Origin: Onthophagus taurus
Taxonomy: Eukaryota > Arthropoda > Insecta > Coleoptera > Scarabaeidae
Reading direction: 5' to 3'
Length of the DNA: 64,000 nt
Assembly (NCBI RefSeq): GCF_036711975.1
Contig: NC_091972.1
Coordinates: 22,697,001-22,761,000, forward strand
The notes under the pieces are model-generated. The model was not told where the DNA came from, did not search any database, and saw only the letters and a list, made by a program, of their open reading frames with translations. This document shows, piece by piece, positions 1,701-6,397 of the stretch; position 1 is the stretch's first letter, and every line of letters begins with the position of its first letter. The position numbers and the translations under genes are program-made.

Positions 1701-1742
1701 ATTCTTTCCTAGGATGATTGACATTCAAAAGACAAGTAATCT

Positions 1743-1852
1743 TACCCAACAGTCTTAAAACGACCCAACTTTGTTAAAATAATTGTTTTTAAAAATTGAT
1801 AAATCAGTCAACTTAGACTTAAATTATTACTCAATCTTTATGGATAATTTGT
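1743..1852. repeat. tandem-repeat copy A (left of pogo-like insertion)
   Basis: This stretch carries the CCCAACTTTGTTAAAAT block, the TCAACTTAGACTTAAATTA block and the CTCAATCT block, in the same order as two copies to the right (3453-3935). It stops at 1852, where the pogo-like element begins. The matching right-hand part resumes at 3450 (CTTGTAGTATAAGAGATATG). Confidence 0.6.
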
Positions 1853-1856
1853 AAAA

Positions 1857-3437
1857 CAGTGTTTAACCGTTTTTGTAAAAAAATGTAAAAATGAGGTTCC
1901 AAGGAATATCTAAAAAAAAATAAATCTGTCCACAAATAGCCACCAGTCTCTTCTCCACCTCCTACTACGCAAAAAGTCTACGACCATACCGTTCTTGAGT
2001 TCTTGTTGTTTAATTTGCGCTAACTGCCGGCCTACTCACATCGTGCTAAAAATAGTAATTTTTATGTTTAGAAATTCGCCTAAACAAGGTCGTATTATTC
2101 CGAAGTTTTTGCATGTATGGTGTTTTTTTTTTGTTTGCCAGTGATCTAACAATATTTTCTATTGGTTGTATTAAGAAATTACCGCTTTAATTAATTATTT
2201 GTGAAAATAAAGGCGGTCAAAGACTAGTAGTTCTAAATTTAATTAAAAATTAGTGTTTGACCAAACGGTCAAATACTAGACGAATTGGTTGTGGTATAAT
2301 CTCACAAGTATTTATATTTGATTAATAAAATGGAAAAATGTGTAATACCTGTTTTTAAAACTTATATCTTCCTGTTTAAACTGTTTAGTATTTGACCAAA
2401 ACTTTTATACTTTAAAACTAAGATACAATCAGTTTAAATATGCGGTCAATTACTGATTCTTCTTTTGGTCATTTATAGGACATAAACACGTCAAACACTG
2501 AGTTTTTTAACCGATTTTTAATTTTATAAATATTTAAGCCTAATATAAATATAAGTGTAAATGTTTGGTTCTTTTCTATTTTTTTAAGCCTTTTTTATAA
2601 CAATAAAAGTAATTGAACACACTTAAACAGTAATGAATCTGTAAAATTAAAAGGATAAAAGGTAGGTCAAACACTGACTCTTATAGTGGTCAATTATTAT
2701 CAAAAATGGAAAATCTATATGGAAAATTTAGCAAATATGAATCAGGTTCACTTTTTTCAGTACCAATATGACAACGAAGCCTAAGTTTAAATATAGTGAA
2801 GAAAATCTTCAAAAGGCTTTCGATACAAGAAGTAGGGGTTTATCTTGTGAAAAAGCAGCCAAGATGTTTAATGTACCAAAGTCAACTCTTATTTATAAAG
2901 AAAAATTAAAAACACCAATGCAATTTGAAAATGGACCCACCAGCATTTTTAAATTCTGATGAAGAAATACTACTGGTTGAATGGTTGTTTCATTCAGTAG
3001 TCCTGTTATAAAAACCAGTTGGAAAACACAAAATTTGGGTGAAAAGTTAAGTCAAGAACATTTTGCTCCATTTAAAGAGTCAAAAAATATAAACATTTTT
3101 TTGTGAACAAAATAGTATGGAAAAATAATGAACATGAATATTATATTAAGAATCGGTCAAACACTTACGGTTTTAAGGTCAAAGACTAGATATTATTGGT
3201 CAAATAGTGTAATCAAAGTGGTCAAACACTGAAAGCGAAATACAGTTATTCTTTTTAATTTTAAAAAAATATTACTTTATGATGTTATATTTTATATGTA
3301 GGGTAACTTTAAATGAATCAGATGTGTATTTGATCATATTTTGATCATTTTATGTAAAGGCAGAGGGATCTACAAGAAAAATAATATGACTCGTTCAAAC
3401 ACTGACATTAAAATATCCTTAACAGGTCAAACACCGG
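1857..3437 (+). mobile_element. pogo-like DNA transposon with iterated subterminal motif
   Basis: The two outermost repeats are inverted: CAGTGTTTAACC at 1857-1868 and GGTCAAACACCGG at 3425-3437. Between them about 15 versions of GGTCAAACACTGA flank a psq-domain ORF at 2768. Copies sit at 2215, 2251 (minus), 2267, 2386 (minus), 2444, 2489, 2665 and 2688 on the left, and 3156, 3178, 3199, 3221 and 3393 on the right. None lies inside the coding part. The element interrupts a tandem repeat. Known: pogo/Tigger elements have short CAG-type ends and insert at TA. Inferred: the motifs are transposase-binding sites. Exact ends are uncertain by a few bases, and about 22 bp of target appears lost on the left. 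Confidence 0.65.
2768..3010 (+). pseudogene. pogo-like transposase N-terminus (psq HTH + start of CENPB-type HTH), frameshifted
   Basis: The ORF opens with ATG at 2768 and encodes a pipsqueak-type helix-turn-helix, with KYSEENLQKAF near residue 9 and EKAAKMFNVPKSTLIYK near residues 28-44. That is the DNA-binding arrangement at the N-terminus of pogo/jerky-like transposases. A one-base excess near 2935-2940 throws the frame. In the shifted frame translation continues GPPAFLNSDEEILLVEWLF, which fits the start of the CENPB-type domain, and then stops. The DDE catalytic domain is absent. The relic is non-functional as a transposase and is flanked on both sides by the iterated motif of its host element. 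Confidence 0.75.
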
Positions 3438-3452
3438 TGCGTTTACCCTACT

Positions 3453-3947
3453 TGTAGTATAAGAGATATGACTTCTTAAAATACAAACAACCCAACCCAA
3501 CTTTGTTAAAATCATCCTGATCAGGAAGAAGATTATCAATTTAAAACAGATTTTAAATTGATAACCTTCTTCCTAATTAAAATGGAGCAATCAACTTAAA
3601 CTTAAATTAATGCTCAATCTACATACAGAATTTGTGGTTATATACGTTTCTTTAATATTTGTAGTATAAGAGATATGATTATTTAAAATGAAAACAACCC
3701 AACTCAACTTTTTTTAAAATCACCCAATTTTTTCAAAATTGATTACCTTCTTCCTATTTAAGATGAAGCAATCAACTTAGGCTTAAATTAACACATTAGC
3801 TGCCACGTCATTCATAAATGAATGACATTCATTTATAAATGTCATTCATGACGTCATCACGTAGCAGCCAATGTGTTAATGCTCAATCTCTATAAAAAAT
3901 TTGTGGATATTTTCGATTCTTCAATACTTGTAGTATAAGAGATATGA
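3453..3947. repeat. tandem-repeat copies B and C (~181-207 bp)
   Basis: TGTAGTATAAGAGATATGA recurs at 3453, 3660 and 3929. The unit between the first two is 207 bp; the second spacing is 269 bp, or 181 bp once the inserted 84-bp MITE and one TTAA are removed. Copy B is longer partly because of an internal palindrome at about 3530-3570, where TTATCAATTTAAAA faces its complement. Confidence 0.75.
3792..3875. mobile_element. 84-bp piggyBac-type MITE with TTAA duplication
   Basis: The element is bounded by TTAA at 3788-3791 and TTAA at 3876-3879. Its ends are inverted (CACATTAGCTGC on the left against CACATTGGCTGC read from the right), and the middle is AT-rich and palindromic (ATTCATAAATGAATG). 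The sister repeat copy at about 3600-3620 shows the unoccupied site, CTTAAATTAATGCTC, with a single TTAA. TTAA duplication is the hallmark of piggyBac-type transposition. No coding capacity. Confidence 0.85.
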
Positions 3948-4264
3948 CTTGTTACGTGAAAATTCCAATGAAAATGATATATTTTTCTTTATGTTCGTAA
4001 CATCAATAACATCGGTCTGTTAGATCGAACCACCAAAAGTGTTTTTTCTTCGTTTCTTTACATTTACAAGATAATTTTATGTACATTAGATGTTAAAACA
4101 TACGGATACTATGTTTGGATGATAGGTAATACATAGTCAGTAGATCTAAAGTGCTCCATAACATAATTAGGTTCTGTAATAACTATTTATTAAGACATTT
4201 TAAAACACGTAACATTTTATTAAATAAACTTAAAGTAAATCTTTTTCAAAGTCAATACTATATT

Positions 4265-4500
4265 AATGTCTAACACAATCACTGCACATTGCAGTAACAT
4301 GCTCTTAACATAAACTTTTTTTACATCCAGTACACTTATATTTCATTTTGCGATATTTTTTGCACTGCATAATTTACATCTACCATACTCTGTGTTTTGC
4401 TCTTGGGCAACAGTTTCAGGTCCCATGTTGCAGATTTGTTTTATCCGCATTCGGGTTAAATATGGCACTTGTTGTTACACAATTGCCAAACAGTTTCAAA
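4265..4500 (-). pseudogene. piggyBac-like transposase, C-terminal cysteine-rich domain
   Basis: On the minus strand this piece reads GRCKLCSAK and, after a one-base frame change, KMKYKCTGCKKSLC, then a stop and EHVTAMCSDC. The CxxC spacing matches the C-terminal cysteine-rich (RING/PHD-like) domain of piggyBac transposases. It completes the gene whose body lies at 6470-7700; the PLE in between accounts for the roughly 2 kb separation. Confidence 0.75.
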
Positions 4501-5843
4501 AATTCCTATACAACAATTTTAATAGTGATATAAAATATAGTGTTAAAAACTCAAAACAATTAATTGATTCTCTTCAAGATATCCAAATCAATAATAACTC
4601 CATCCTCATCTCTTTCGATATTAAAAACTTATATTCTAATATTCCTATAAAAGATTCTTTAAAAATAATCGAAGCCCACCTTTGTAATAACATATGCAAA
4701 TATGACAGTATTCAATACCAAGACATATATAACTTCATTTCCTTGTTGGAATTGGTATGCAATCAGAATTTTTTCATTTTTGATAACAAATTTTACCAGA
4801 TGAAGGATGGTCTCCCCATGGGTTCACCCATTTCAGGGATAATTGCTGATATTTTTGTTAACCACTTCGAAGGGATTCTGTTCTCGGAGAAATACGAATT
4901 TATTACTAAAAATATTATTTTTTATAAAAGATACGTTGATGATATCCTTCTGATATACAACGGTAAAAGATCCCACATTATAGTTCTTAATAACATTTTT
5001 AACAATATTAATAATCTTCAATTTACTTACGAAGTAGAAAAATGTTCATCTATTTGCTTCCTTGATCTTACTATAACAAAGTGCACCTCCGAGAACAAAA
5101 TCCTATTCGACATATATAGAAAACCTACTACTACCAATACCTTGATCCCAAAAAATTCATTTACATCATTTCAACATAAATACGCATCTTTTCGTTTCTT
5201 TTTTGATAGAATTTTAAATTACCCACTTTCACGTGCTAGTTTTAACAAGGAAATTAATACTATCATCAAGTTGGGCTTCGACAATGGTTACTCCCTTCAG
5301 GAGCATCAACATTTATTTTTCCGCATTCATCAAGCTAGAATTAATAATCTCATATATCATCACTTTTCCAACCCCGGCGTTTTTGTCTCTATACCTTTCC
5401 ACCCTTTAATCCAAAAACAATTTTCCGATATTTTCAATAAGTTTAATGTCACACCGGTATACCGTGCTAATGCTAAATTGGGCCAATTATTAACTAATAA
5501 TAAACACATATTCGATGATAAACTTAAAAGTGGGATTTACAAACTTAACTGTAACGATTGCGATTCCTTTTATATAGGACAAACTGGAAGGAATATCAAT
5601 ACTAGATTCAAGGAACACTTAAATAAAGAAAATTCTACTTTTTATAAACATTTAAAAGAACATAAACATAAAACTGATATATCCAAAATTAAACTTCTAA
5701 AACATCTTAATAAATCCAGAAAAATGGACCTATATGAGGAATACTATATAAAATCATACCACAATAAAAACCCTGAACATATTTTGAATGAAATTACTGA
5801 TTTTAACAATTATAATAGATATTTTACACCTTTCTATATATAA
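4500..5843 (+). CDS. PLE reverse transcriptase with GIY-YIG endonuclease (5'-truncated)
   Basis: A frame open from 4392 to the stop at 5843 encodes a Penelope-type protein; numbering here is from 4392. Motif A is SFDIKNLYSNIP (near 73), motif B is GLPMGSPISG (near 140), and the catalytic YVDD box follows at about 180 in FYKRYVDDILLIY. A PLE-type linker runs to a GIY-YIG domain with GIY at about 381-383, YIG at about 394-396, the following arginine in NTRFKEH and a late glutamate. Known: in PLEs the GIY-YIG nuclease nicks the target for primed reverse transcription. The first ~35 codons derive from antisense piggyBac, and the N-terminal part of the normal protein is missing. No internal stop or frameshift is seen. 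Whether it is expressed cannot be told. Confidence 0.88.
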   Translation, partial: KFLYNNFNSDIKYSVKNSKQLIDSLQDIQINNNSILISFDIKNLYSNIPIKDSLKIIEAHLCNNICKYDSIQYQDIYNFISLLELVCNQNFFIFDNKFYQMKDGLPMGSPISGIIADIFVNHFEGILFSEKYEFITKNIIFYKRYVDDILLIYNGKRSHIIVLNNIFNNINNLQFTYEVEKCSSICFLDLTITKCTSENKILFDIYRKPTTTNTLIPKNSFTSFQHKYASFRFFFDRILNYPLSRASFNKEINTIIKLGFDNGYSLQEHQHLFFRIHQARINNLIYHHFSNPGVFVSIPFHPLIQKQFSDIFNKFNVTPVYRANAKLGQLLTNNKHIFDDKLKSGIYKLNCNDCDSFYIGQTGRNINTRFKEHLNKENSTFYKHLKEHKHKTDISKIKLLKHLNKSRKMDLYEEYYIKSYHNKNPEHILNEITDFNNYNRYFTPFYI

Positions 5844-6397
5844 TTTCAAACTCACCGCTCTTGCATTTGGCTTGTCACATCCTAATACCAATTTTTCATT
5901 TTCTTAAGTTGTCATATTACTTACTTCCTCTTTTAACTGACCTCAGTCCGTTGTAACCAGTCGATATGTGCACACGACTCAAGTTTTTCGGTAACACTTA
6001 ACGTTATAATACGCTTTCAATAATATTAATACCCTTTTTCTTTTAGATTTTTAACGATAAATTCCCTTTTATAACACGCCTTCAGCTTTTACAGTTTCTT
6101 TTACACCTGCCTTCAGCGTTTCAAAACTTTATTAACCTATCACCCGACGTTGGAGTTTTTAACCTGACATGGTAAACCCACGCCGTTTTCAAAAATTTCA
6201 CTTTTTTCTTTAATCCAAAATTATATTTTTAATCATCGGTCCGTCGTAGTTTTTTGTAAGAGAAAGTTTTCCACATGATCATTTTTTCACGTGTCCATCA
6301 TTCTTAGTTTTTGACGGTAAGAACTTTTTATAATTTTAATTTTATATCACCAACATAAAAAACCCGTCAACTAGTAATAACTATCTTCCATATTATT

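Follow-up and report, generated by a model that had tools for sequence, protein, structure and literature searches.

Drosophila pogo inserts at TA and carries two transposase sites at each end. Its transposase reportedly binds a 12-bp sequence in the terminal inverted repeats, to judge from the title of a 1999 paper by Wang, Hartswood and Finnegan. Pogo-like transposons are also said to have given rise to MITEs in Arabidopsis (Emigrant/Lemi1; Feschotte and Mouches, 2000). In another superfamily, the hAT element Tol2 has subterminal repeats. The element that we describe here lies near the start of the window, by which we mean the whole 64,000-nucleotide stretch of Onthophagus taurus DNA analysed, C7:22697001-22761000. 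It resembles Drosophila pogo in its N-terminal HTH-type DNA-binding domain, in a 12-13 bp site slightly inward of each end, in its TA target and in having more than one putative transposase site per end. In the layout of its sites it differs by their number, about 13-15 over arms of ~0.9 kb and ~0.3 kb as against two per end. The Emigrant/Lemi1 elements, too, are non-autonomous and derived from a pogo-like transposon, but the dense motif array and the leftover psq fragment set the present element apart. With Tol2 it shares repeats at the ends, but not the superfamily.

Galileo, of the P superfamily, has multiple THAP-domain sites in its long terminal repeats (PMC3688188, in excerpt). Like our element, where the sites are putative, it has several sites for an N-terminal DNA-binding domain deep within its ends, but it has a P-element-related transposase and long terminal repeats. 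In piggyBat, motifs are repeated beyond the terminal repeat, as they are here, and subterminal sequences alter activity; unlike the present case, piggyBat belongs to the piggyBac superfamily and its subterminal DNA has been shown to inhibit (PMC11707139, in excerpt). Sleeping Beauty and Bari have bipartite repeats (excerpts of PMC3688188) and likewise secondary transposase sites at their ends, but these are tandem repeats within the bipartite terminal repeats. Passer pogo elements mostly have very short repeats of <30 bp, and the excerpted text of PMC9976928 uses 'subterminal' only in a reference title. Tigger elements of bees have repeats of 10-33 bp in the excerpts of PMC8472432, where the word 'subterminal' is absent, and the terms 'psq' and 'sub-terminal' are absent from PMC7325037. 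Among the matches listed in open-licence literature on pogo or Tc1/mariner subterminal repeats, consulted in excerpt, there was no such array. The earlier, sequence-only reading of this DNA did not know such arrays as a standard feature of pogo-like elements. A dense array like this one is indeed absent from the literature matches listed, but repeated sites as such may not be foreign to pogo, given the two sites at each pogo end. We regard the array as a site-rich version of an arrangement that other transposons also use, unusual in density compared with pogo and known in principle.

The stretch at 1853-3450 (+ strand) is one of dozens of interspersed copies that a non-autonomous DNA-transposon family has in the 290.8-Mb genome. 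Its left terminal repeat is lost, and its right end is intact, with the right TA at 3449-3450. A DNA search of the animal's own genome returned at least 58 matching pieces (40 of 119 candidates scored), and 40 genomic places were retrieved and aligned. Two of these, L047 and L048 (on C20 and C11), have identical flanks and are probably the same insertion on two contigs, an assembly duplicate. The alignment defines a common stretch of 1857-3450, with the left limit at 1857 in most copies and the right limit close to 3450, and complete copies extend ~31 bp further out on the left. The earlier reading had placed the element at 1857-3437; the element is real, but its true right limit is 3450 and the window copy is missing its left inverted repeat.

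Full copies start, after a TA, with GGGTAAAACGCCAGTAATTGACCGTTGGTCAGTGTTTGACCG and finish with GGTCAAACACTGGTGCGTTTACCC before a TA. Their terminal inverted repeat is imperfect, of ~24 bp with small gaps, and reads GGGTAAA(A)CG(CA)CCAGTNNTTGACC; the motif forms its inner half at both ends, in mirror orientation, and the outer half is GGGTAAACG. TA stands at 35 of the 39 aligned left ends, the exceptions being the window copy, L015, L028 and L035, and in the right flank of 28 of the 29 copies with both ends found, for which the left search itself demanded TA. Genome-wide, end patterns at up to three mismatches gave 72 left and 70 right ends, and reversed controls gave 0. A right end lay within 9 kb of 54 of the 72 left ends (strand ignored), and 38 of the 54 distances fell at 1278-1683 bp. 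Of the features that define the pogo superfamily within the IS630-Tc1-mariner group, the family shows a TA target on both sides, short terminal inverted repeats and an N-terminal psq/CENP-B-type HTH. Assignment of the element to the pogo type is supported by the TA flanks, the short inverted repeat, the psq-domain transposase remnant and, in a long copy, a DDE_1 match below threshold. A Helitron-like reading, prompted by the missing left repeat of the window copy, was dropped since complete copies show TA flanks and inverted repeats.

The window copy is inserted in a ~210-bp tandem repeat (TTGTAGTATAAGAGATATGA...ACCCAACTTTGTTAAAAT...), within a single unit; the repeat spans window positions 1741-1852 and 3451 to ~3960. 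To the left of the element, flank homology with the adjacent unit breaks off at 1852; to the right it picks up again at 3451-3452, and ~20 bp of the tandem unit are missing together with the left inverted repeat. The neighbouring tandem unit reads ...TTCAATACTTGTAG..., so that TA is the likely target. In one repeat unit a ~92-bp palindromic stretch with ends TTAACACATTRGCTGC is inserted at 3788-3879, and the TTAA at both of its ends suggests a small TTAA-targeting MITE. Further along, at 4314-5843, lies a 509-aa ORF with matches to RVT_1 (5e-14) and GIY-YIG (1.4e-6), which we take to be a Penelope-like element. Elsewhere in the genome, the family copy L080 holds at 2136-4223 a reverse-transcriptase-like ORF followed by a GIY-YIG-like ORF, both recognised by eye; on its sequence this is a predicted nested Penelope-like insertion.

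Within the window copy, 14 sites with up to three mismatches to GGTCAAACACTGA start between 1856 and 3425, 11 on the + strand and three on the − strand (1856, 2250 and 2385). This agrees with the earlier description of copies mostly in one orientation, with the outermost left copy and two others inverted. A scripted count, which covers 1857-3437 and is therefore without the site starting at 1856, gave 9, 13 and 17 sites at up to two, three and four mismatches, respectively, and the earlier figure of about 15 copies holds at three to four mismatches. In 200 first-order Markov sequences of the same composition the corresponding means were 0.03, 0.42 and 3.65 sites, with maxima of 1, 3 and 9, and a few of the weakest window sites, at three to four mismatches, are expected at chance level.

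The leftmost of these sites, 1856-1868 (−), is the second left-end site of complete copies. Inward of it the left arm holds GGTCAAAGACTAG at 2215-2227 (+), a head-to-head pair with a 4-bp spacer at 2250-2262 (−) and 2267-2279 (+), GGTCAAATACTAA at 2385-2397 (−), GGTCAATTACTGA at 2444-2456 (+), CGTCAAACACTGA at 2489-2501 (+) and GGTCAAACACTGA itself at 2665-2677 (+), ~90 bp upstream of the ORF. The pair had been noticed before as a near-palindrome at 2251-2279, and its commonest form is retained in 23 of 30 copies at either site; the position of CGTCAAACACTGA in the family consensus, 656, has four mismatches and is a poor motif there. No site at up to three mismatches falls in the ORF (2768-2956), which bears out the claim that copies stand on both sides of it and none inside. 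In the right arm, four same-orientation copies start at 3155, 3177, 3198 and 3220 (3155-3232, +; steps of 22, 21 and 22 bp), and GTTCAAACACTGA at 3393-3405 (+) lies 32 bp inward of the terminal copy, which starts at 3425 and is included in the right terminal inverted repeat GGTCAAACACCGGTGCGTTTACCC (3425-3448, +). The right arm also contains an internal TAGGGTAA at ~3299-3307, made up of the bases of the element's left tip plus the target TA, perhaps a vestige of an inner end.

A family consensus was built from 30 copies, and we used 15 sites in it: 13−, 31−, 391+, 426−, 443+, 561−, 620+, 780−, 839+, 1353+, 1375+, 1396+, 1418+, 1595+ and 1627+. Sites 780 and 1396 have four mismatches each, and sites 13 and 1627 fall in the terminal repeats, mirrored. 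The core GGTCAANNACTRR occurs 11 times exactly and 13 times at up to one mismatch, and 300 shuffles of the consensus gave means of 0 and 0.09 (maxima 0 and 2). Single copies, 30 in all, have 5-12 exact sites and 6-14 at up to one mismatch. The sequence around individual motif copies is unrelated and forms no tandem units. Neighbours in the same orientation are spaced by 22, 21, 22 and 32 bp on the right and by 18 bp on the left, and a Rayleigh test on nine non-independent distances (p about 0.007) is no more than suggestive of helical phasing. The left end exists in one- and two-unit forms, the former in 4 of the 40 places (L040, L043, L047, L048) and the exact two-unit string in 17 of 40, further places matching with variants. 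Units have therefore been gained or lost, which fits recombination between sites. A satellite or chance array was ruled out, given that shuffles yield almost no sites, that the element is interspersed with defined ends and that the flanks are unrelated; the motif is thus part of the element and not of a flanking satellite, as the earlier reading had allowed it might be.

The 63-aa ORF at 2768-2959 (+) contains an HTH_psq domain (Pfam E 5.4e-6; 26.5 bits against a cut-off of 20.4) and a CENP-B_N match below the cut-off (0.16); single-sequence structure prediction gave three helices for this peptide, at a mean pLDDT of 68.6. It had been called a psq-domain transposase ORF. An HTH_psq remnant is there, but only as this 5' piece of the transposase gene, and the next piece, GPPAFLNSDEEILLVEWLFHSV at 2933-2998 (+), is in another frame; in the long copy L079 an almost identical peptide comes after psq without a change of frame. 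A short piece from further down the gene, NLGEKLSQEHFAPFKESKNINIFL at 3032-3103 (+), adjoins the internal deletions on the deletion map.

L079 (C1:15739500-15746000), a decayed long copy of the autonomous type, has both ends, ~6.2 kb apart. Its sense strand carries a 152-aa ORF with psq near the start (HTH_psq E 3.5e-8, above the cut-off) that continues GPPAFLNSDEEKLLVGWLFHSADRGFPVTK, and further transposase pieces follow in other frames. A piece of a second long copy, L084, matches DDE_1 at E 4e-4 (20.4 bits, under the cut-off of 22). The piece FKDERPGNTWFKGFLSQHP resembles by eye a second HTH (HTH_Tnp_Tc5 type), and a Pfam search of the long-copy pieces gave no match to that type. No intact transposase was found; in the two long copies read, L079 and L084, stops and insertions interrupt it. 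L079 also holds, in its left arm, a nested ~2-kb insertion (3966-5718) with a 428-aa ORF that is hAT-like by eye, for which Pfam returned a single weak match below the cut-off. The arms, with much of the array, are common to window-type copies and L079, and the right arm is also present in L084, which holds the 3' part and, in the stretch retrieved, showed no left arm. In L079 several of the consensus sites have disappeared or changed, and its nine sites at up to one mismatch are all in the arms, with none in element positions 2868-5971, which span the transposase remnant. Aligned with L079, the consensus lacks ~1.2 kb at its position 1203 and ~1.4 kb at 1271. Given these gaps and the confinement of sites to the arms, internal deletion from the autonomous form is the best account of the common ~1.6-kb form, and the two deletions make the psq ORF a transposase remnant.

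The start of the psq frame is recognised in 20 of the 30 aligned copies, and the psq part is broken by a stop, frame shift or deletion in 15 of these 20, the exceptions being L009, L010, L014, L039 and L042. The majority consensus of the larger subfamily is interrupted by an in-frame TAA within the psq region. The frame of the window copy stops after 63 aa, and those of the related L050 and L052 end at the same place or near by. Among 97 matches to the 63-aa peptide listed, other pogo families included, four are full-length and stop-free (the window, C6:18107936, C1:13098186 and C11:18690372), and C2:19952079 is full-length with one TAA. The consensus stop and the broken frames speak against the ORF being a functional gene of the family. 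That it is a chance neighbour was ruled out, given that the frame recurs in many copies and continues into transposase in L079, but association is not universal: L085 (~0.6 kb, TA-flanked, retaining eight sites) and L086 (~0.9 kb) are without the psq part.

The exact motif occurs 155 times in the genome, as against four for the reversed control. Among 100 of these 155 matches that were listed, 93 have an end match within 2.5 kb and five more lie inside L079 or at most 0.9 kb from a psq match, leaving two unplaced (C7:20215674 and C7:1243785). With 98 of the 100 listed matches in or beside family copies, spread of the exact motif beyond the family finds no support here, and neither does the suggestion that it seeds new regulatory sites. 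A diverged relative at C7:27224485-27224589 matches psq at 60% identity over residues 8-43 (E 7e-4). An exact motif at C7:27224688-27224700 lies ~80-90 bp upstream of its expected start, much as consensus site 839 stands ~90 bp upstream, and C7:27220334 carries a right end, GGTCAAACACTAATGCGTTTACCCTA. This relative hints that the motif site is old.

Among the 30 copies, divergence was 0.034 in motif columns, 0.038 in other non-coding columns and 0.048 in the ORF remnant. Extra conservation of the motif was not found, 26% of circular shifts being equally low. The array thus recurs in every copy compared, but with no significant excess conservation, and its persistence may reflect shared descent only. 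Between subfamilies A (n=6) and B (n=19), with the outliers L018, L025, L032, L039 and L042 left out, fixed differences fell at 2/135 core, 6/60 degenerate and 50/1097 background sites. The core changed less than the background, but not significantly so (Fisher p 0.11), nor in a McDonald-Kreitman style comparison with private changes as yardstick (p 0.31); core and degenerate differed at p 0.011, for positions that had been picked by inspecting the copies. Against the consensus, L079 differs more often in motifs, at 11/169 positions (+21 gapped), than outside, at 47/1043 (41 gapped), and L084 equally at 4/78 and 14/274. The 30-copy, subfamily, L079 and L084 comparisons do not establish selection on the array.

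Since the motif is part of the element and makes up the inner half of the terminal repeat, subterminal sites for the element's own psq/CENP-B-type protein are the best reading, and here the sequence-only reading anticipated our own. From their position and orientation, the motif copies are most likely subterminal transposase-binding sites. We put at roughly 70% the probability that the window copy is an internally deleted, non-autonomous pogo-type cut-and-paste transposon whose motif is the putative primary DNA-binding site of the family's transposase. The array could instead be a by-product of sequence turnover, through slippage or end-repeat recombination, with no function in current elements. 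The coexistence of one-unit and exact two-unit left ends and the lack of significant excess conservation would both be expected of such turnover, but internal copies have unrelated flanks rather than tandem units, and between subfamilies the core changed less than the degenerate positions picked by inspection; we consider this unlikely.

Two further explanations appear less probable still. If the motif were the site of a host transcription factor, hitch-hiking in the element as a regulatory array, dispersed copies in the 5' arm upstream of a gene would suit an enhancer, as would a head-to-head pair with a 4-bp spacer. The outermost copies, however, belong to the terminal inverted repeats and are mirrored, the densest cluster is in the 3' arm, and, among the matches listed, the exact motif is hardly seen beyond family copies, all of which makes a host site improbable. 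We give equally little credence to the idea that, in the subfamily to which the window copy belongs, the psq-only ORF encodes a small DNA-binding protein that occupies the array and represses transposition, on the model of KP, the repressor of P elements. The four stop-free matches among the 97 listed and an HTH_psq score above the Pfam cut-off are in keeping with such a protein, but they have to be set against the in-frame TAA of the majority consensus, the 15 broken frames among 20, a remnant whose rate of change is no lower than that elsewhere in the element (0.048 vs 0.038) and the survival of nothing but the psq HTH.

If the motif copies are transposase sites, the psq domain of a full-length transposase, supplied in trans, would bind GGTCAANNACTRR. 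The outermost site in each terminal repeat would place the transposase for cutting beside GGGTAAA. Inner sites would recruit further transposase, probably cooperatively, the 21-22 bp steps corresponding to about two helical turns, and may help in locating or synapsing the ends, or may restrain transposase. The same sites would serve to mobilise non-autonomous copies, and the psq ORF of the window copy would be a relic with no needed function. A more speculative extension, which we hold only as a tentative possibility, is that in this pogo family the ends have become extended arrays of more than 12 transposase sites, in part helically phased. The abundant non-autonomous copies would then compete for transposase as docking sites, or sponges, and so set its dosage.

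As it stands, this is a well-defined, decayed transposon family that calls for no new mechanism. CENP-B-like proteins are related to pogo transposases, and the family bears on how such proteins locate repeated short sites. If the motifs do bind transposase, pogo would take its place alongside P/Galileo, piggyBac-type and hAT elements as a user of many subterminal sites, and the family would lend itself well to asking whether additional sites promote or restrain transposition.
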